From: Enterococcus sp. PF1-24
GTDB taxonomy: Bacteria; Bacillota; Bacilli; Lactobacillales; Enterococcaceae
Reading direction: 5' to 3'
Length of the DNA stretch: 64,000 nt
Assembly: GCF_029893325.1 (NCBI RefSeq)
Contig: NZ_JARXWL010000001.1
Location: 1-64,000, forward strand
The notes under the pieces were generated by a model, which did no database searches, was not told where the DNA came from, and saw nothing but the letters and a program-made list of their open reading frames with translations. Made by a program: the position numbers and the translations under genes. Of this stretch, positions 54,112 to 64,000 are shown in pieces (positions within the stretch are counted from its first letter, which is position 1; every line of letters begins with the position of its first letter).

Positions 54112-57100
54112 TTATTCCGCTTTTGCTTTTTTACGGCGGAAGTATAAGACACCGATTGCCGTAGCGGATACGGCTAAGCCAATCAAGGCGAAACCGATAT
54201 TGCTGGTATCGCCAGTCTTTGGTAATGAGCGGTCTGGTGTTGCTGGGTTTTCAATTTTCTTATTTGTCATTTCGCATTTCACAACCTTTCCATTTTCTTT
54301 GATTTCAAACTGCATAGGGGTTTCATCTAACTGGTAGCCTTTCGGAGCGTCGAACTCTTGGAAATAGTAGATTCCCTTTGGTAACTGCTCGAAAGTAAAG
54401 ATTCCTTTATCATTGGTACGACCCTCAACAATCACATTCTTTTCTTTGTCTATGATACGAACGCCTGTATCTGGTAAAAGTTCCCCAGTGGATACATCTT
54501 TTTTGGTTAATTCCGCTGTACCTTTGATAAGGTAGTTCTTGACCTCAAATAGAATCGTAGCTTCTGTTTCTTCTGATGAAGCAGGCTGTTCACCAAGTAA
54601 TTCATTTTCGGTATTAAAAGCCTTGATACCCTCTTTGGTCGATTCAATACGAAGCACATCTTTGGATGCCAAGTATTGGTCGGAAGAAGAAGCCATTTCT
54701 TTTAGATAGAATGTGCCCACTGAAATGTTTTTAAAGACACCTAAACCATCTTTTGTGATAGTGACTTCCTGTAGGACTTCGCCATCTTTGTTTTTTAATG
54801 CAAATACTGCACCAGTACCCAAAGCGTCATAAGCAAACTCCACGCCTGTTTCTTTATCAAAGTGAGCTGTTTCATTCACTTTCTTGATTGTAAATCCGTT
54901 GAAATGTAATTTATTTAAAATAGGATTACGTGTAATCTTTTGCATAGTTTCACGACCATAAGCCACCGTATCTTGATAGATATGGATAGGGAACGTCGCA
55001 TGGTTGTTTTCAGCGGTAAATTCAAAATCATATACGGTATCATCAGCCACATGGGAAGAACCAGCGTCAATCTCTTTTAAGTAGTATTTTCCTTGTGGTA
55101 ACTGCAAGTCAAAGGTTGCTTTTCCATCTTTGACAGCTTGATAAGCAATCAAAGCATTTTCTGGTACTTGGATAGTTTCGGATACGTTTCGAGTTTCACG
55201 AGCGAAGATACCAAAGACCTTGTTATTACCTTTGATAGCTTCAATCTCTGGCTGGTTATTGTTCCAGCTAGAAATAGATTCTTCATTTTTAAATAATTGA
55301 ATATCTAAGGATTGGAAGTCATTGGTTGCCGTAATAGAAGTAGAAGTCAGTTCTACTAATTGTCCAGCATATTTCAACTCAAATGAAATCGGTCTGTCAT
55401 CTAAGATAAAGCCGTTTGGAGCTGATACTTCAATCGCTTGGTATTTTCCAAGGTACAATTCTGGCGATTGCCATTCGCCGTTTTCATCAGTGGTAATGGT
55501 AGCGACTGTTTCGCCTTTTTTAACCCGAACCGTACCATCATTGGTTTTAATATCCTCAACCGCTTCAATACGGTAGGTAACCTCTGCGGTTGGTTTATAC
55601 TCATAGACAAACTCATACACTTTTCCATAATCGGATTCTTTCACCCTCACATCAATCGGTGTCTGTCCAGTCTTTTCAAGGGTCACGATTCCTTTTTGGG
55701 ATTTATCCTCAAAGTGAATTTCAATTAGACCACTATTTGAGCCGTCAACTTTGAATTTGGATGGTTCTTTGGCTAAAACATATCCTTCTGGTGCTTGGAC
55801 TTCGATTAGTTCGTAATCGCCATATGGTAATGCTTCTGGGGTAATTAAGTAACCCTCTTCATTGGTAAAGAATGTATCTGTTTCGCCATCTTCGTTGAAT
55901 TTTGGCATAGATACCAATTTCCCTGTTTGCATACTTTTAATCTGGAAGCCAGCGTCACTTCGTGGAATGGTTTTGCCAGTTTCAGCGTCTACCTTAACGA
56001 CTTTTAGCTTTTCTTCAATGACCTTATTTTCAATGGCATAGTGATGGGTTTCATTCTGCTCACGAATGGTTACCTTGAAAGCTTTAGCTGGCTCGTAACC
56101 CTCTGGGGTTTTAGTTTCCTTAACGGTGTAGCTGTCATAAGGCAAGTCCGTAAATTTCAAATAACCCTCTTTGTCGGTCAATCCTTTTTGAACCAGTTTT
56201 CCAGTGGTATCACTGAATACGGAAAATTCTACATTTTCCAGTGGCTTGATTTCTTTCTTATTTAATAGATAGCCTAGTTTTCCTTTCCAGTCGTAGTTCC
56301 CAAACTTCACAAGGTCAAAGCCACCAGTAATTACAGTTTCTTTCACAGTAGTGATATGAACCGCTGTTTCTACGGTTTGACCTGCGTATTTCAGTGTAAA
56401 TGGGTGTTCGTCTTTATCAATCAAATATCCCTCTGGAGCTTTTGTTTCAATCCAGTAGTAATCATCAAGGTAAAGACCTTGCACGGTCGCTTTGCCGTCT
56501 TTGATAGTGACTTCTTTCATCACTTTATCATCAGAAGTACGACGTAATTCATAGACTGCACCATCTAACTTCGCACCGCCTTGTGGTTTTGAGCCTGTTT
56601 TGGAATCCTCTTTGATTAAAGTAGCATTTCCTTTTTGTTCCTGTTCTTCTTGTGCAATCGTAGCAGACGTGATTTCCACGGTTTGACCTGCATACTTTAA
56701 TTCAAATGGAATCTTGTTTTTATTTAGCAGATAACCGCTTGGAGCTTTGGATTCCAAGGCATAGTATTTGCCTAATTTCAATGGGGAAGAAGTGGCGTTC
56801 CCATAGACATCAGTTGTCATAGAGGTTACTTTTGTGCCATCTTCTTTGTAAATATCATAAACTGCACCTTGTAAAGAGTAGTATTTGTTCAACATAGAAG
56901 AACCGAACTCTTTACCAGTCTTAGTTAATAGCACCTGTCCAAGCTGTTCTTTATTGTTCAAGGTCACGGACACTGTAGTGTTTGGTTTGATAACTACTTT
57001 CTTGATTTCGCCTTTGTTAAAATAGCCATTCGGAGCGGTAACTTCGGTTACAGTAACAGTCGTTCCCTCTGGAATATCATTGATAGTCGCAAAGCCGTTT

Positions 57101-57990
57101 GAATCCGTCACGATCTTCTTAGACGTGCCGTCGTATTCAAACTTCAATTTAGCATTTGGTAAAGGTTTGCCAGTTTCTTCATCAATCTTTGTGGCTTGAA
57201 TATTTCCAAGATGAATCACATCAACCTTGACCGTAGCTTGTTTGGAACTTTCTAAATGGAACTCAACCATAGACTGTTCATGTGGTTTCTTGTAAACAAT
57301 CGACGTACCGACTTCATTTTTGGGTACTTTACGGAATGTAATAATACCGTCATTGGAATTAGCATTTGGTATAATTTTCAGGCTATTTCCATTGTGGTTC
57401 GCTGTTGCATTGGTAGTGTTGGATTCCATTGGCATATCACTTAGGACACCATTAGAATCGATTAATGTGATACTATCGCCAACCGTTACAGATATCGACT
57501 GACCGTTAAATGAGGGTAAGGTATCATGTTTATTTACCAATGCCATAATTTCAGCTTTACGCTGATAATAATTTGGAATTGTGGACGAAACATACTGGTC
57601 GCCAAGTTCTTCCCATATCATGACTTGGGTTACGGCATAATCATAATGGTTCTGACCTGTAGCAGTATAACCGTAGTAGGCAATCTTGGATAATAAATCC
57701 TTTTTTGCATTTACGTAGGTTTCTGGAACAAATCCCTCGCCACTATTAGCAGGCACACCAGATTCAATACAGAATACTTTTTTGCCGTCCATTTTTAACA
57801 CGTATACATTATGGGTAATGGCATAACCAGTGTTAGGACTAACACCTGTATAATAATATTGCGTTGGTTCATCTAATTTCAATGAACTAGCATGCACAGG
57901 TAATACATTTGAGAATAATGTTCCGCATAAGGTCACTAAGACCATGATGAAACTTACTACTTTTGGTGGTATTTTTGATTTTGTTTTCAT
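54112..57990 (-). CDS. LPxTG surface adhesin with thioester domain and CnaB/SpaA repeats
   Basis: A sortase-anchored cell-wall protein of 1292 residues. A signal peptide (to VHA near 36) is followed by a thioester domain (about 40-200) whose cysteine (FCIESG, C76) and glutamine (AVTQVMIWE, Q124) form the predicted internal thioester for covalent attachment to surfaces. About ten CnaB/SpaA immunoglobulin-like repeats follow, each with E/K pairs for isopeptide bonds; KYAGQTVE recurs at least three times. The anchor is LPKTG (1258-1262), a hydrophobic stretch and RRKKAKAE. Heading a conjugative element, it probably aids cell-cell contact in mating or host binding (inference). The start is chosen by AAAGGA seven bases upstream of ATG 57990. 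Confidence 0.93.
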   Translation of the reverse strand: MKTKSKIPPKVVSFIMVLVTLCGTLFSNVLPVHASSLKLDEPTQYYYTGVSPNTGYAITHNVYVLKMDGKKVFCIESGVPANSGEGFVPETYVNAKKDLLSKIAYYGYTATGQNHYDYAVTQVMIWEELGDQYVSSTIPNYYQRKAEIMALVNKHDTLPSFNGQSISVTVGDSITLIDSNGVLSDMPMESNTTNATANHNGNSLKIIPNANSNDGIITFRKVPKNEVGTSIVYKKPHEQSMVEFHLESSKQATVKVDVIHLGNIQATKIDEETGKPLPNAKLKFEYDGTSKKIVTDSNGFATINDIPEGTTVTVTEVTAPNGYFNKGEIKKVVIKPNTTVSVTLNNKEQLGQVLLTKTGKEFGSSMLNKYYSLQGAVYDIYKEDGTKVTSMTTDVYGNATSSPLKLGKYYALESKAPSGYLLNKNKIPFELKYAGQTVEITSATIAQEEQEQKGNATLIKEDSKTGSKPQGGAKLDGAVYELRRTSDDKVMKEVTIKDGKATVQGLYLDDYYWIETKAPEGYLIDKDEHPFTLKYAGQTVETAVHITTVKETVITGGFDLVKFGNYDWKGKLGYLLNKKEIKPLENVEFSVFSDTTGKLVQKGLTDKEGYLKFTDLPYDSYTVKETKTPEGYEPAKAFKVTIREQNETHHYAIENKVIEEKLKVVKVDAETGKTIPRSDAGFQIKSMQTGKLVSMPKFNEDGETDTFFTNEEGYLITPEALPYGDYELIEVQAPEGYVLAKEPSKFKVDGSNSGLIEIHFEDKSQKGIVTLEKTGQTPIDVRVKESDYGKVYEFVYEYKPTAEVTYRIEAVEDIKTNDGTVRVKKGETVATITTDENGEWQSPELYLGKYQAIEVSAPNGFILDDRPISFELKYAGQLVELTSTSITATNDFQSLDIQLFKNEESISSWNNNQPEIEAIKGNNKVFGIFARETRNVSETIQVPENALIAYQAVKDGKATFDLQLPQGKYYLKEIDAGSSHVADDTVYDFEFTAENNHATFPIHIYQDTVAYGRETMQKITRNPILNKLHFNGFTIKKVNETAHFDKETGVEFAYDALGTGAVFALKNKDGEVLQEVTITKDGLGVFKNISVGTFYLKEMASSSDQYLASKDVLRIESTKEGIKAFNTENELLGEQPASSEETEATILFEVKNYLIKGTAELTKKDVSTGELLPDTGVRIIDKEKNVIVEGRTNDKGIFTFEQLPKGIYYFQEFDAPKGYQLDETPMQFEIKENGKVVKCEMTNKKIENPATPDRSLPKTGDTSNIGFALIGLAVSATAIGVLYFRRKKAKAE

Positions 57991-58032
57991 ACTCATTTCC
58001 TTTCATTGTTTTTCTCTTTTAATTTTGGGTAC

Positions 58033-58063
58033 AAAAAAAGACGCTTCCTTTTACAGAAACGTC
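58033..58063 (-). terminator. Terminator upstream of the adhesin gene
   Basis: Reading leftwards, GACGTTTC, loop TGTAAAAG, GAAGCGTC and seven Ts. It ends transcripts entering from the right and is nearly identical to the bgl operon terminator (29751-29781). Confidence 0.82.
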
Positions 58064-58102
58064 CAATTCAAACGAGTAAATAAAAACTATCTACTCCAAT
58101 AT

Positions 58103-58258
58103 TTAGTTTTTATTTGTTGCGTTCCCACTTACTAGGTCTATAACGACTGACACATTGATGTAGTCACGAATCTCCTTATTTCGGATTTTATCACCATCAC
58201 CAGTAAAGACGATATGTTTGTAAAACTGCCTAAAATTAAGGATTTCCAGCCTTAACAT
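58103..58258 (-). CDS. Short orphan ORF or gene remnant
   Basis: A 51-codon frame from ATG 58258, open a further 16 codons upstream to a TAA: MLRLEILNFRQFYKHIVFTG then DGDKIRNKEIRDYINVSV. It looks protein-like in composition but no Shine-Dalgarno site is seen. It may be the C-terminal remnant of a longer gene lost at a junction. Not recognised. Confidence 0.35.
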   Translation of the reverse strand: MLRLEILNFRQFYKHIVFTGDGDKIRNKEIRDYINVSVVIDLVSGNATNKN

Positions 58259-58344
58259 CGTTGTAGCAACACTATTGTCTCCACATGGCTCGAGCGGGTC
58301 GCTTTAATAGCACTTCTAGTGCCTAACTCCTTATTTCTTGTGGT

Positions 58345-58491
58345 AACAAGTCAAAGAAATCCATTGTATTTGCGTGAACAAGTCAAAGGCAAAATCCCTA
58401 GAAAATGCCTGTATTTCAGTAAATAGGTCAAGGGCGATTTTAGGGAAGTTCTCGTTCTTTTTTGCTTGGCTGTTTGTAATGGGTCAAGGGG
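58345..58491 (-). repeat. Cluster of TTGAC-containing repeats
   Basis: Four related 12-14-base units, AACAAGTCAAAG (58345 and 58377), AATAGGTCAAGGGC (58422) and AATGGGTCAAGGGG (58478), appear in the gap between the adhesin region and the restriction operon. On the minus strand each contains TTGACY, like a -35 box. Spacing grows from 32 to 56 bases. May be a set of promoters, protein-binding iterons or junction repeats. Confidence 0.45.
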
Positions 58492-58496
58492 GGTTC

Positions 58497-58892
58497 TTAT
58501 AATAAGTTTTCGCTAGAAAGCAGCATCAATCTGCCTAGAGCTAAAATAAACCACTCACGGTTCTTTGGCTCCAAGATTTCTGCCCCTGTATATGCCCAAT
58601 GATTGAAATATCGCCACCTTGAATAAATCGCTGACCCCAGTAAGTTAATATCAACCACAGAATCAATAATTTTTGTAAGCTCTCTATCATCGTACACTGC
58701 ACTGCCATACTTTGTTTCAAAGGCCTTTCCACAATCCATTTCAAAACAGAGAGCATCGCAATCATCAGCCATAAAGCGATCGACCAATTCTATGTAATTG
58801 ATGTCTTGGTCACGAAACTTATCGCTCCATTTGACAGCAAAGTTATGTATCTGCGTCATATCTGCCACTGTGGTACACCTCCATTCACTCAA
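58497..58892 (-). CDS. Unknown protein, third gene of the GmrSD-type operon
   Basis: A 131-residue acidic, mostly helical protein (MSEWRCTTVADMTQIHNFAV, VDRFMADDCDALCFEMDCGK, WRYFNHWAYTGAEILEPKNR). It has no signal peptide or membrane segment, and four cysteines without a metal motif. Its start overlaps the stop of the DUF262 gene by four bases, so it is translated with it and likely works with it (partner, immunity or accessory protein). No family recognised. Confidence 0.75.
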   Translation of the reverse strand: MSEWRCTTVADMTQIHNFAVKWSDKFRDQDINYIELVDRFMADDCDALCFEMDCGKAFETKYGSAVYDDRELTKIIDSVVDINLLGSAIYSRWRYFNHWAYTGAEILEPKNREWFILALGRLMLLSSENLL

Positions 58893-61717
58893 TTTCTCTT
58901 TGCTAAGTCAATCCTTTTTGATGTCAAATCTACCGATATAACCTCATATCCCGCTGCAACAATTGCATTTGCCATAGTATGTGTTTTCGATGGTTTCCAG
59001 TAAACAGGGTAAGTATATGCTGATCTGCACAGTTCGTTTCCGATAATATTTTCGACTTCTGCAAAGGTCAATGCAATCTCGCTTTTACCACATGACTCCA
59101 AATACTTTTTTATTGCTGAAAACTTCTCACCGAATGGCTCTTCATTATCTAACTCATCGGCAGATACAAGTGCTTCCACCAATGAATCAAATTTTTCAAG
59201 CATCCATGCGAATAATTCATCTTGTTTTTCAGGATTAAAAATATCGGCTTCACGCTTGAACATAATTCTCTTTGCATTACTCTTTTCTCTGCTTGAATAC
59301 CAGTCTAGCTTATCGCCAAAAACATCTTCTATCTTTTGCTTTTTACTTTCCAGTCTTGAAAAAACATCAGAATTCTCAGCATAAATTAAAATAGCTAAAA
59401 ACTTACTACGCGTAATAGTAAATTCGATATGCAAATCAGCAGTTCCTACAGACACTGCATACCAACCATCGAACGATGGTTTTCTAAGTGCTACCGTGTC
59501 TCCATAGCCTTCCTGACTGCAATAATCAACAAAGTTTGTCCAGAATTTTATTCTTTGATTTTCAAGTTCCGTACCACCAGCAATGTGTTCTACTGCTTTA
59601 GGAGATTTTTTATTGACAGCATCAGTTTCTTCTGGTTCTTCTTTCTCAATTTCATGCGGAATCTCTCTCCCGTCCACTGCAAATGAAACATACACCAACT
59701 TTTCAAGCTGATCTTTATTAAAACTGAATTCCCATCTGTTTTCCATAAATTGCAACAACATCTTGCTACGCTTATGTATTCTTTCCGCTGTCCAGTCTGT
59801 TTCTTTTGAAACTTCAATTTCGGAATGGGAACCGTTTTGATATCCTCTTCTTCCCGTAGATTTAGAAGTTTTCTTATCTTCAAAGCTATCATTCTGCAAA
59901 GCTGAGTTAATGCTTTGCGATAACGGCAATAAGTTTCCTAGTGCGCATGATAGCAACTCGATTTCCTCATCATCAAACTGTCTGAACTGATTTCTCCAAT
60001 AATACTTAGTTGGTGTCTGCGGAAGAATATGTTCAATAGATACTTTGTCTTTTTCTGTTTTTGTAAACATCTCCCAGCTAACCTTGTCTATATTATATTT
60101 CTTTGCCAAATGTGATTCATATTCGTATAAAAAGTACTTGATAGAGTTCCAATAATAGAACCCTCCCATATTATCAAAATGCTTTTCAATTTTTGTAACA
60201 AAACTCGGTAGGGCATATTCGATATTGGCATTGGTAGTTTCATTGATATCATCTATTAAATCATCAATATCCATCTGTTGTAAATAAATGCTACGTGCAG
60301 CACGGTAGTATTCACTGCTTCTAAATGTTGCATTATAATAACCAACCCTAAAGCAGATAAACAAAAATCTCTCTACTGCTTTAAATACTTCTACACGTTT
60401 TTCTGCAGGCAAATCTCTGCGACTGATGATTACCATAACAAGCGGTCTGAAGTGACCAATACCAATACGATTCAAACGGTCAACCCAGATTTTTTCATCG
60501 GCCATCAAATTATTACTCTGCATAGGGAAGAAAGTGTCATACCAGTATTTAGCCATATTCTTAAGACTATTTACGTAGTCTGCGATTTCAGTAGGTACTA
60601 ATTTTGAAACTTCTATGGTTTCCGTTTCTGTATTATCTACATCATCTTCCTCTTCGTAATCTGTGTTTATAACATACCCCTTTGGCAATTCGCTCATAAG
60701 AACAGTTTTCTTTTCAAATATGTTCTTAGCAGAAAACTTATTCAGCAGGAAACGAATATAGTCATCGCCCTTCCTTCTGGAATAAGTAAAATATATTGTC
60801 CAATGTGCTCTTAAAAAATCGTCATCAGAAAGAGGAACATTTTCATTTCTGCCAAGTTGAAAGTATATTTCCTTCCACGCATCATTGATTTGTTTTCTCA
60901 GGTGGGACTTCTCCATCTCATCGAATTTTTCGTCTGAATACAGTGTAGTAAGATATATAAGCCTGTTTTTCAGCAACTCCAGATTCGTCAGTTTCTTGCC
61001 ACGATTATTCATGGTTTCAAAAGCCACAAAAACATCATAATCATCGTCTATCTCATGTATATTGAACATCAATCTCAATGTGAGTTTCAAATAGAGATTA
61101 TTGATTCCTTCAATCCTATCGTTTTCATAGAGAGCCGTTAAGTTCTCCCTAAAGAAACTCTTTGCAAATTTGAGATTTTTTGTGTAATAGGTTTCATTGA
61201 CCGTACCGGAATACGGCTCACCAAAGATCTTATACCTTAAGTAATCCGCACTCGGATTGTCCACCTCATAACCAAACAAGTATGTTGTAATCTGGTTCAT
61301 TGGTGGTCTGCTTTGATAGATATATTTAGCCACTACATCTTTCAAGGTGTCATATCCAAGTACGATTTCATCGTCTTTCTTTCCTTTATTTTCATCCAGC
61401 TCTCTCACAAAACAAATTATTTCATTCAGTAAAATTACGAAAGTAGTCAAACGTTGCTGACCATCTACAATGTGACAAGCCTTAAATCCTTTACCTACCA
61501 TCCAGAGGTCAGAACCCCAATCCTTTGTCTCTTTTCGTTCAAGTGATTTTAAAGACAAAAGTCCTGTATAATGATATCTATCCTGTTGTAAGTTAATCAG
61601 GTCATCCCAAAAATCCGCAAGTTGGGACTGCTGCCAAGCATAGCCCCTCTGATAGTCCGGAATTCTAAAAAGTCTGTTTTGAAAAAGTAAAGAAAGCGAT
61701 TGTAATTCATTTGCCAT
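58889..61717 (-). CDS. GmrSD-type restriction protein (DUF262 + HNH/DUF1524 + DUF4268)
   Basis: A 942-residue single-chain relative of type IV restriction enzyme GmrSD. The DUF262 domain (about 10-260) has PDYQRGYAWQQ (20-30), HIVDGQQRLTTF (82-93) and FETMNNRGKKLTNLELLK (233-250), with DGQQR as the nucleotide-binding motif. The DUF1524 His-Me nuclease has IEHILPQ (561-567) and GNLLPLS (594-600). The C-terminal domain (about 730-870) is DUF4268-like (RIKFWTNFVDYCSQEG, HIEFTITRSKFLAILI). Likely degrades modified phage DNA (inference). First base is shared with the HTH gene stop (TAATG) and the end overlaps the 131-residue gene. Confidence 0.9.
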   Translation of the reverse strand: MANELQSLSLLFQNRLFRIPDYQRGYAWQQSQLADFWDDLINLQQDRYHYTGLLSLKSLERKETKDWGSDLWMVGKGFKACHIVDGQQRLTTFVILLNEIICFVRELDENKGKKDDEIVLGYDTLKDVVAKYIYQSRPPMNQITTYLFGYEVDNPSADYLRYKIFGEPYSGTVNETYYTKNLKFAKSFFRENLTALYENDRIEGINNLYLKLTLRLMFNIHEIDDDYDVFVAFETMNNRGKKLTNLELLKNRLIYLTTLYSDEKFDEMEKSHLRKQINDAWKEIYFQLGRNENVPLSDDDFLRAHWTIYFTYSRRKGDDYIRFLLNKFSAKNIFEKKTVLMSELPKGYVINTDYEEEDDVDNTETETIEVSKLVPTEIADYVNSLKNMAKYWYDTFFPMQSNNLMADEKIWVDRLNRIGIGHFRPLVMVIISRRDLPAEKRVEVFKAVERFLFICFRVGYYNATFRSSEYYRAARSIYLQQMDIDDLIDDINETTNANIEYALPSFVTKIEKHFDNMGGFYYWNSIKYFLYEYESHLAKKYNIDKVSWEMFTKTEKDKVSIEHILPQTPTKYYWRNQFRQFDDEEIELLSCALGNLLPLSQSINSALQNDSFEDKKTSKSTGRRGYQNGSHSEIEVSKETDWTAERIHKRSKMLLQFMENRWEFSFNKDQLEKLVYVSFAVDGREIPHEIEKEEPEETDAVNKKSPKAVEHIAGGTELENQRIKFWTNFVDYCSQEGYGDTVALRKPSFDGWYAVSVGTADLHIEFTITRSKFLAILIYAENSDVFSRLESKKQKIEDVFGDKLDWYSSREKSNAKRIMFKREADIFNPEKQDELFAWMLEKFDSLVEALVSADELDNEEPFGEKFSAIKKYLESCGKSEIALTFAEVENIIGNELCRSAYTYPVYWKPSKTHTMANAIVAAGYEVISVDLTSKRIDLAKRN

Positions 61718-61932
61718 TATTCCGCACCTCTTTTCACATAAGTAAGTTCAATATCATACCCCAAAGCCTCAAGCATCTGTACGAAAGTCTTGTTCACCAC
61801 ACCGTCCCGCTTTTTGATGATGCGATTCACATACTGGCTTGTCGTTCCAATTTCTTCTGCAAGTTGTGCTTGAGTTATCTCATGCTCTATACATTTAACC
61901 TTTACGTCTACTTCAATATTGTTTTTAATCAT
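61717..61932 (-). CDS. Small XRE-type helix-turn-helix regulator
   Basis: A 71-residue protein that is little more than a helix-turn-helix: TQAQLAEEIGTTSQYVNRII. It leads the GmrSD-type operon and overlaps it by one base. Its own promoter carries an inverted repeat (61962-61976) just beyond the -10, so it probably represses the operon. CAGGAG precedes the ATG. Confidence 0.87.
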   Translation of the reverse strand: MIKNNIEVDVKVKCIEHEITQAQLAEEIGTTSQYVNRIIKKRDGVVNKTFVQMLEALGYDIELTYVKRGAE

Positions 61933-61961
61933 CTTCGCACTCCTGTTCGTAACGCTTGATT

Positions 61962-62015
61962 ATTTGTAACACAAATTAGATGATTTATTATACCATACTT
62001 CTCCCCAAAAATCAA
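61962..62015 (-). promoter_or_regulatory. Promoter and operator of the GmrSD-type operon
   Basis: Reading leftwards, TTGATT (62015-62010), a 17-base spacer and a perfect TATAAT (61992-61987). ATTTGT GTT ACAAAT (61976-61962), a perfect 6-bp inverted repeat, lies at the expected transcription start. It is a likely site for the small HTH protein. Confidence 0.72.
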
Positions 62016-62031
62016 TGCCCCGACAACCACG

Positions 62032-62058
62032 AAAAAGCACCCTGCCATAGCAGAGTGC
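62032..62058 (-). terminator. Terminator after the second recombinase
   Basis: Reading leftwards, GCACTCTGC, a four-base loop and GCAGGGTGC (one wobble), then TTTTT. It separates the recombinase gene from the restriction operon. Confidence 0.85.
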
Positions 62059-62072
62059 CGAAAAAATAATTT

Positions 62073-63644
62073 TTACCCTTTAATCTCAATCTTTATCCCC
62101 GACTTGAACAGGAAGTCCAAATGGTCATCAAATACTGTGATTTTTTGGGTCAGCTTGCGAACCAACTGCTCATCGTAGGCGGTGACACGTTTTGGCTGCG
62201 ATTTCAAGTATTCAATCATCTCTTCTATACGTTCTTTGCCTGCGTTATAATTCACATTATTCGCTACCTGCTCTTCCTTTTCTCTTTGCAAAGCGTATAT
62301 CTTATCGACCACCTTGGAATAATCCTCTGACGCAGTGGTTAGCTTTACAAGAAGTGTTTGTTGTTTTTCGATTTGACTCTCGATACGTTTCAGTTCCTCG
62401 CTGTGAGCATTACCGAGCACTTCGGAGATGTTAGTTTCCAGCACCTTTATGGCTCTTTGCTTTCCGCCAAGTACCTTATTGATTGCCTCAAGCACCAAGT
62501 TTTGAAGTTGCACCTCTGTGAGCGTTCGTGCTGGACATTCTACCCCCGGTGCGCTAAGCCTAGTCACGCACCGCCAAACAATCTGCTTTTTGCCACGATT
62601 ATTCCAATGGGTTCTACGATACATATCGTTGCAATGTCCGCAAAAAACAACGCTCGATAGAGCATATTTACTACTATAGACTCGCTTTTTGCCGTCCATT
62701 CCACTTCGAATATTCGCTCTGCGTTTTATCTCTTCCTGAACTCTTGCAAATAGTTCTCTTGGAATAATCGCTTCATGGTCGTTGTTCACGTAATACTGGG
62801 GAACAGTGCCGTCATTTGCAACTCGCTTTTTTGTAAGGCAATCCACTGTATAAGTCTTTTGCAAAAGTGCATCGCCCATGTATTTTTCATTGGTGAGAAT
62901 CTTTCGGAGTGTGCTTGAGTGCCACTTTGGGTTGCCTGCCGCTGTCAAGATTCCATCGGATTCAAGTCCTGACGATATTTCCTTATAATTTGCCCCATCA
63001 AGATATTCACGATAAATGCGTTTGACAATCTCTGCTTCTTCTGGAACAATCACAAGATTTTTATTCTCGTCCTTTGTATAGCCTAAAAAGCGATTATGAT
63101 TCACCTGCACAATGCCTTGTTGGTAGCGAAACTGAATCCCTAGCTTAACATTTTGCGATAAAGACTCGCTCTCTTGTTGAGCAAGGGAAGCCATGATGGT
63201 AAGCAGAACCTCGCCTTTAGAATCCATCGTGTTGATATTTTCTTTCTCGAAAAACACCGCAATATTTAACGCTTTCAGTTGCCTGATATATTTTAAGCAG
63301 TCAATCGTGTTTCTTGCAAAACGACTGATTGATTTTGTGATAATCATATCTATATTTCCGATTTTGCATTCTTCTATCATGCGATTGAACTCATCTCGCT
63401 TTTTGGTATTCGTGCCAGAAATACCATCATCGGCAAATATACCTGCAAGCACCCATTCAGGGTTATTTTGAATAAATAGCGTGTAATGCTCAATCTGTGC
63501 TTCATAGCTACTTGCTTGCTCATCGCTGTCAGTTGAAACACGGCAATAGGCAGCCACTCTTAATTTTATTTTTTCTTCCGTCTTGGTTTCTTCCACTTTC
63601 CGATTTAACCTCGGTGGAAAGATTGTTACACTTTTTTCTCCCAT
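62073..63644 (-). CDS. Second large serine recombinase
   Basis: A 523-residue site-specific recombinase from ATG 63644. The catalytic domain (about 30-175) holds [11 protein letters not shown] (nucleophile serine) and [11 protein letters not shown], then a recombinase domain and a zinc ribbon ([24 protein letters not shown]). A short coiled coil is near 400-460. It is clearly related to the recombinase at 34.8 kb but shorter and different in sequence. Its ATG shares one base with the stop of the upstream recombinase-like gene (TGATG), so both are translated together. It may be the right-end integrase of a composite element, or that of a second element. Confidence 0.93.
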
Positions 63645-64000
63645 CAAAACCACTCGCTTTCTATCATGCTGTAGGCATATTCAGCTTGCTTGAATGGATC
63701 ATCAAACATAATCTCCCGTGACCTAAAACTAAACTTGGTAGGTGCTAGTATCGGCAAATCTTCTGTGGCTTCATGAACTCTCCCAAGTTTAACCGCACGA
63801 TGTTCTCGCTCTAGCTGTGCCTTTTGAAAAGTTTCCTCATCAATAATGGCAGGATAATATTCTGTACCCATATATTTTTGGTTTTTTAGCATTCTGCCTG
63901 CACTACCGTGAAATGTATCAATTCCTGCTTCAAGGGCGGCTGTTCTTAGTGTCATTCCGCAGATATAACCATCAAATAGTTTTTGCACCCGAGCGGCCTT
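63644..64000 (-). CDS. Recombinase-like protein, 3' part only (5' end outside the window)
   Basis: The last 118 codons of a gene that enters from the right edge. [40 protein letters not shown] and [16 protein letters not shown] match the recombinase domain (PF07508-type) that follows the catalytic domain in large serine recombinases. It ends without a zinc ribbon. Paired recombinase genes of this kind occur in elements of Clostridia and Enterococcaceae. The catalytic part, if any, lies beyond 64000. Confidence 0.8.

Follow-up and report, generated by a model that had tools for sequence, protein, structure and literature searches.

A prophage-end GmrSD-type restriction operon in Enterococcus sp. 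PF1-24 with a probable truncated member of an undescribed accessory domain family

Results

Gene content of the operon

We analysed a 64,000-nucleotide stretch of the Enterococcus sp. PF1-24 genome (the window; positions 1 to 64,000 of contig NZ_JARXWL010000001.1). Coordinates prefixed C1 are contig positions, and L numbers denote the loci used for comparison. Three open reading frames, all on the minus strand, were read from the window at 61717-61932, 58889-61717 and 58497-58892. These and the features around them are as follows.

58252..58287, minus strand: prophage/host junction with the displaced rlmD (rum) 3' end, CATGTGGAGACA...TAA encoding HVETIVLLQRC*, placed by host collinearity
58497..58868, minus strand: third gene in its likely real extent, 123 aa from a GTG start, equivalent to the all-helical N-terminal domain of a family of ~515-aa proteins
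58497-58892, minus strand: third gene as listed among the ORFs; TTG start
58889..61717, minus strand: GmrSD-type nuclease, 942 aa (open frame and Pfam)
61717..61932, minus strand: HTH_3 (Cro/C1-type) protein, 71 aa, the operon's first gene (Pfam and related loci)
61962..61976, no strand: tentative operator, the inverted repeat ATTTGT-gtt-ACAAAT, closely following the -10
61982..62015, minus strand: promoter-like site TTGATT-17-TATAAT with an extended -10 (TG), before the HTH gene
62036..62059, minus strand: terminator-like hairpin between the cargo operon and the recombinase genes
62073..63653, minus strand: serine recombinase, 526 aa, last of three in tandem (Resolvase, Recombinase, Zn_ribbon_recom)
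63644..64000, minus strand: second recombinase gene, 139 aa, continuing on the contig beyond the window to C1:64063
C1:64060-65628, beyond the window: third recombinase, 522 aa

The gene order proposed by the first-pass annotation (HTH, GmrSD-type nuclease, third ORF) was borne out by the shared strand and the domain matches, and the domain matches also support its description as a restriction operon of the GmrSD type (DUF262-HNH-DUF4268) that begins with an HTH gene. A cognate methyltransferase is absent from the operon, which consists of the HTH, nuclease and third genes alone. Overlaps of one and four bases had also been described. The HTH and nuclease genes do overlap by one base (TAATG), but the four-base overlap between the nuclease and third genes (TTGA) requires a TTG start at 58892 and is probably spurious. 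An alternative GTG start lies at 58868, 24 nt downstream of this TTG, with GGAGG 9 nt before it, and the codon aligned to the GTG is GTG in 25/45 relatives and ATG in 13/45. The leader GGAGGTGTACCACAGTG before the third gene is kept in 18/43 relatives (counted at 14 or more of 17 positions, as 0.02% of random stretches would be by chance), mostly behind unrelated upstream genes. Considering the GTG with its Shine-Dalgarno sequence and the conservation of both codon and leader, the third protein is most likely 123 aa long and its gene separated from the nuclease gene by a 20-nt gap.

The proposal of one promoter with an operator fared less evenly. From -35 to -10, the TTGATT-17-TATAAT stretch occupies 62015-61987. 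The -10 hexamer TATAAT recurs 5' of the HTH gene in most of seven related loci, which favours the promoter, but the promoter scan overall was not above chance (16 sites vs 13.7 expected). The operator-like repeat is a perfect 6-3-6 in the window; as the perfect repeat is not conserved in the closest relatives (L028 and L025), its assignment as an operator stays tentative.

Viral contigs contain 69 relatives of the HTH gene (66–90% identity), standing before many different genes that include GmrSD, RhuM, N6_Mtase, HNH and GIY-YIG. The HTH gene appears to encode a general regulator of prophage cargo. A role as the specific partner of the domain encoded by the third gene (hereafter the accessory domain) was ruled out, since this domain is found in just 2/69 of the viral HTH loci. 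Four loci (L010, L026, L030 and L035) have the same HTH gene at the front and the same accessory gene at the end, with differing genes in the middle; as they were found via the accessory gene, they do not constitute an independent count.

Insertion site

The operon lies next to an end of a prophage of ~53 kb that is integrated at the rlmD (rum) 3' end, and it fills the cargo slot between the attachment site and the serine recombinases of the prophage. Collinearity of the window with host relatives runs to 58287 in L107 and to 58281 in L108, and at that point the rlmD 3' end begins. Considering that host homology ends at ~58287 and that the body of rlmD lies at C1:111438-112820, the element spans ~58.3–111.4 kb. 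Read on beyond the window, the three serine recombinases are followed by an amidase, a holin and tail genes, the last assigned by our reading of the ORFs. The 3' end of rum is an integration hotspot for streptococcal phages and ICEs (PMC5053989). A single conjugative element covering 54112-64000, with a CnaB adhesin beside the recombinases, was also considered and ruled out, as 58287 is the phage/host junction at rlmD. A search for near-matches among plasmids returned none.

The 210 bp from the third gene to the prophage junction (58287-58500) contain repeated TTTGACTTGTT-like motifs. Beside the insertion site, 54112-57996 encodes a large collagen-binding/CnaB-like LPXTG surface protein of 1294 aa, its family assigned by reading the sequence. 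A 34-bp terminator-like stem-loop at 58030-58063 is repeated at C1:29748-29781 (97%) and also occurs in related genomes. In genome G066 (L107, near 2520), the same rlmD-end sequence is found beside apparent CRISPR repeats (GTCGCACCTCGCATGAGGTGCGTGGATTGAAAT).

The nuclease and its known relatives

The nuclease matches four Pfam domains: GmrSD_N (DUF262, aa 11-253, E 2.3e-27), GmrSD_C (HNH, aa 520-656, E 3.1e-18), DUF4268 (aa 722-850, E 2e-24) and DUF7662 (aa 867-936, E 9e-12), the fourth of which was absent from the first-pass annotation. The (I/V)DGQQR motif of DUF262/GmrS is present (HIVDGQQRLTTF, with DGQQR intact), as is the HNH motif of DUF1524/GmrD, an intact EHILPQ-type region (SIEHILPQT...LGNLLPL). 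By its domain content, the nuclease is of the known GmrSD architecture and is itself an enzyme of a known kind. The hallmark of GmrSD is NTP-dependent cleavage of modified (glucosyl-hmC) DNA. For the window nuclease we infer restriction activity, in which the DUF262 domain would sense modified DNA and hydrolyse NTP, the HNH domain would cut the modified DNA, and DUF4268 and DUF7662 would probably aid target binding. Aligned to its Lachnospiraceae counterpart (L028:4173-6980), the nuclease gene is a mosaic. Codons 1-360 and 861-942 show 95–97% DNA identity and the middle 500 codons (361-860) 66–72%, which suggests that the central HNH/DUF4268 part was exchanged.

Among the closest described systems is the GmrSD family, including Eco94GmrSD (PMC4619093), whose single-chain arrangement of DUF262 and HNH (DUF1524/GmrSD_C) and mobile, defence-rich context the window shares. 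Homologues of GmrSD with DUF4268 as an additional domain have already been published (Machnicka et al, 2015; PMC4619093). Unlike these, the window adds a C-terminal DUF7662, an HTH gene before the nuclease and an accessory-domain gene after it. The rum prophages phi-SsuSSJ27_rum and Javan575 of Streptococcus suis likewise have serine recombinases and then a four-domain nuclease at the phage end (939 aa with the same four domains and 72% identical, both as measured on the phi-SsuSSJ27_rum protein), but both the HTH gene and the third gene are absent. SspE and BrxU, which are DUF262-DUF1524 nucleases, have in common with the window nuclease the DUF262 fold, the DGQQR motif and the HNH domain (PMC10952713). 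However, the similarity to SspE was weak in a PDB sequence search (E 0.034), and phosphorothioation (Ssp) and BREX genes are absent beside the window operon. Two PADLOC entries also match, HEC-06 at the nuclease N-terminus (3e-46) and PDC-S11 at the DUF4268 part (3e-20), but the window chain covers both, and both are candidates.

The third protein as the N-terminal part of a longer protein

The first-pass annotation had described the third protein as having no known family, and indeed no Pfam model matches its domain. Comparison with relatives identified its 123 aa as the N-terminal domain of a ~515-aa protein, of which the C-terminal ~390 aa are missing in the window; tblastn found no C-terminal remnant downstream of 58497 in the window. 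Two Lachnospiraceae operons, L025 (Coprococcus catus) and L028, have the same order of HTH, nuclease (~81% identical) and third gene, and these keep all or most of the third protein (400 aa in L025, 522 aa in L028).

We modelled both forms, leaving rows from public phage and plasmid records out of the input. AlphaFold2 predicted the window protein as a confident all-helical fold (pLDDT 93.3). The full-length relative (pLDDT 85, pTM 0.52) has a low-confidence flexible linker at residues 120-122, which is where the window copy ends. In its C-terminal part, VIA matched two Mago-like domains (Z 8.3 and 9.8; from structure only) and, at the C-terminus, the PriA 3'-DNA-binding domain (Z 10.1, 75 aa, rmsd 4.4, 20% identity), a part that is absent in the window; a profile search with the PriA-like part found no sequence support for PriA. 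Sequence searches with the N-terminal domain gave no convincing solved relative, and matches to SAKe were ruled out, as they derive from repeated low-scoring segments. Fold searches with this domain reached a best E of 0.74 (PDB) and 1.1 (viral) in Foldseek and a best Z of 7.2 in VIA, which is the chance range for helical bundles and is not proof of a new fold. The intact form would be read, from these models, as a helical N-terminal domain, then two predicted Mago-like domains, then a PriA-3'BD-like domain, with the N-terminal domain as a putative docking or regulatory module joining an accessory protein to a nuclease.

Partners of the accessory domain

A scan of genome contigs identified 80 loci with the accessory domain, in which it occurs as the N-terminus of the long form, alone or fused. 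The hosts are gut Firmicutes, apart from outliers that belong to Bacteroidota and Actinomycetota. Fusions place it behind McrC, HsdR, HNH, Vsr and flavodoxin (one locus cited for each: L031, L054, L036, L055 and L042), behind ADP-ribosylglycohydrolase (L058, with the same layout in L062), and in front of Mrr (L002) and macro (L065) domains. Stand-alone copies are found behind MmeI and an Mrr gene, and copies also behind McrBC; upstream partners include DUF262 genes, McrBC, HsdR, MmeI, Mrr, GIY-YIG and RhuM. The domain is thus beside or fused to most major restriction-enzyme types. On the domain tree, six context groups required 15 changes (least possible 5; shuffled mean 24.7), and the starred branches alone force at least 3 changes for GmrSD/DUF262 and at least 4 for McrBC. 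The domain has switched partner repeatedly.

This pattern bears on the suggestion of a third protein that is dedicated and tightly coupled to GmrSD, for which the first-pass annotation proposed searching genomes to see whether it always follows DUF262-DUF4268 genes. It does not, and is found mostly outside that context. Among the ~40 close relatives, a GmrSD-DUF4268 gene lies upstream only in L009, L025 and L028 (L174 and L175, from a separate search, also follow one); the remainder come after McrBC or Type I genes, after DUF262 genes of other kinds or after different nucleases, or are found elsewhere. Nor does the third gene always accompany the nuclease, which occurs without it in L102, L103, L114-L116 and L172. 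In the last of these, an HTH gene and a related nuclease are followed by a different gene, and three IMG/VR phage contigs encode a nuclease 71–72% identical to that of the window and lack the domain. As the S. suis phage nuclease also stands without the HTH and third genes, tight coupling is unsupported.

Interpretation

We consider the operon to be lysogenic-conversion cargo that would combine modification-dependent (type IV) GmrSD-type restriction with a truncated remnant of a promiscuous accessory or adaptor protein, a reading to which we give a probability of about 0.6. The HTH protein would probably control the nuclease promoter, putatively as a repressor. The remnant would still fold, would lack the presumed DNA-contacting part and would probably be dispensable, its function presumably lost.

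How far the short form has decayed was judged from its end point and its sequence. Homology to the long relatives stops at ~58527-58500, 210 bp from the prophage junction, and shortened or broken copies recur in L012, L027, L049, L052 and L025, as would fit a decaying, functionless fragment hitch-hiking at the prophage end. We hold this at somewhat less than even odds, considering that the open frame and Shine-Dalgarno sequence are retained, that conserved residues are nearly all kept and that the whole domain is present, with a predicted fold. With dN of ~0.17–0.2 vs saturated dS against relatives, the third gene was apparently under purifying selection for most of its history. It keeps 22/23 strongly conserved positions, the one change being G41 to C, and its terminal branch in the domain tree is 0.24 vs ~0.02–0.12 in near relatives; signs of window-specific relaxation are mild. 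The short form may be functional, as L037, L038, L066 and L085 are naturally stand-alone at ~120 aa.

These stand-alone relatives, the kept positions and the purifying selection, along with an end in the flexible linker just after the domain, could also mean that the protein works on its own as a regulator of the GmrSD nuclease, for instance by keeping it inactive in the lysogen, with the truncation stable and selected. This we consider unlikely, as the closest syntenic operons have the long form, S. suis phages and L172 have the nuclease but lack the third gene, and the window copy has both the longer branch and the change at conserved G41. A role as an immunity or antitoxin protein that shields the host against the nuclease, as colicin immunity proteins do, is highly improbable, considering that the Pfam match to Colicin_immun (PF09204) behind this idea is weak and was rejected (E 0.03; 15.2–15.4 bits vs a cut-off of 22), that it occurs in just 1/72 family members, that the nuclease is found without the third gene and that fusion of the domain to the nuclease in cis is frequent.

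Returning to prophage cargo with an accessory remnant, the locus would be a cargo slot where HTH, nuclease and accessory genes combine freely, and its interest lies in the accessory domain family, which is undescribed. If the domain served widely as an adaptor or regulator, a single mechanism would span several defence systems unrelated to one another, and its annotation would make prophage defence cargo easier to find. A more general idea, which is tentative and on balance doubtful, is that restriction enzymes use the ~120-aa helical domain as a general plug-in, in trans or in cis (Type I, MmeI-type, McrBC, GmrSD, Mrr, Vsr, HNH), and that the long form links these enzymes to a DNA-end/fork-binding PriA-3'BD-like protein. 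If true, otherwise unrelated restriction systems would have a layer of targeting or control in common, in the form of a domain exchanged as a cassette together with its own ribosome-binding leader. By its gene contexts, the family is not exclusively restriction-linked, as some distant members have tape-measure genes beside them and others are fusions with ADP-ribosylglycohydrolase, macro or flavodoxin domains.

Two further arrangements were seen among the compared loci. First, distant 187-aa relatives in L063, L069, L071 and L075 stand directly behind a cluster of related genes, which in L069 includes a tape-measure protein; a structural or unrelated use of the domain is possible. Second, a recurrent gene pair (~340–360 aa, and ~65 aa with CxxC motifs) lies between the HTH/restriction genes and the accessory gene in L030, L026, L010 and L045.
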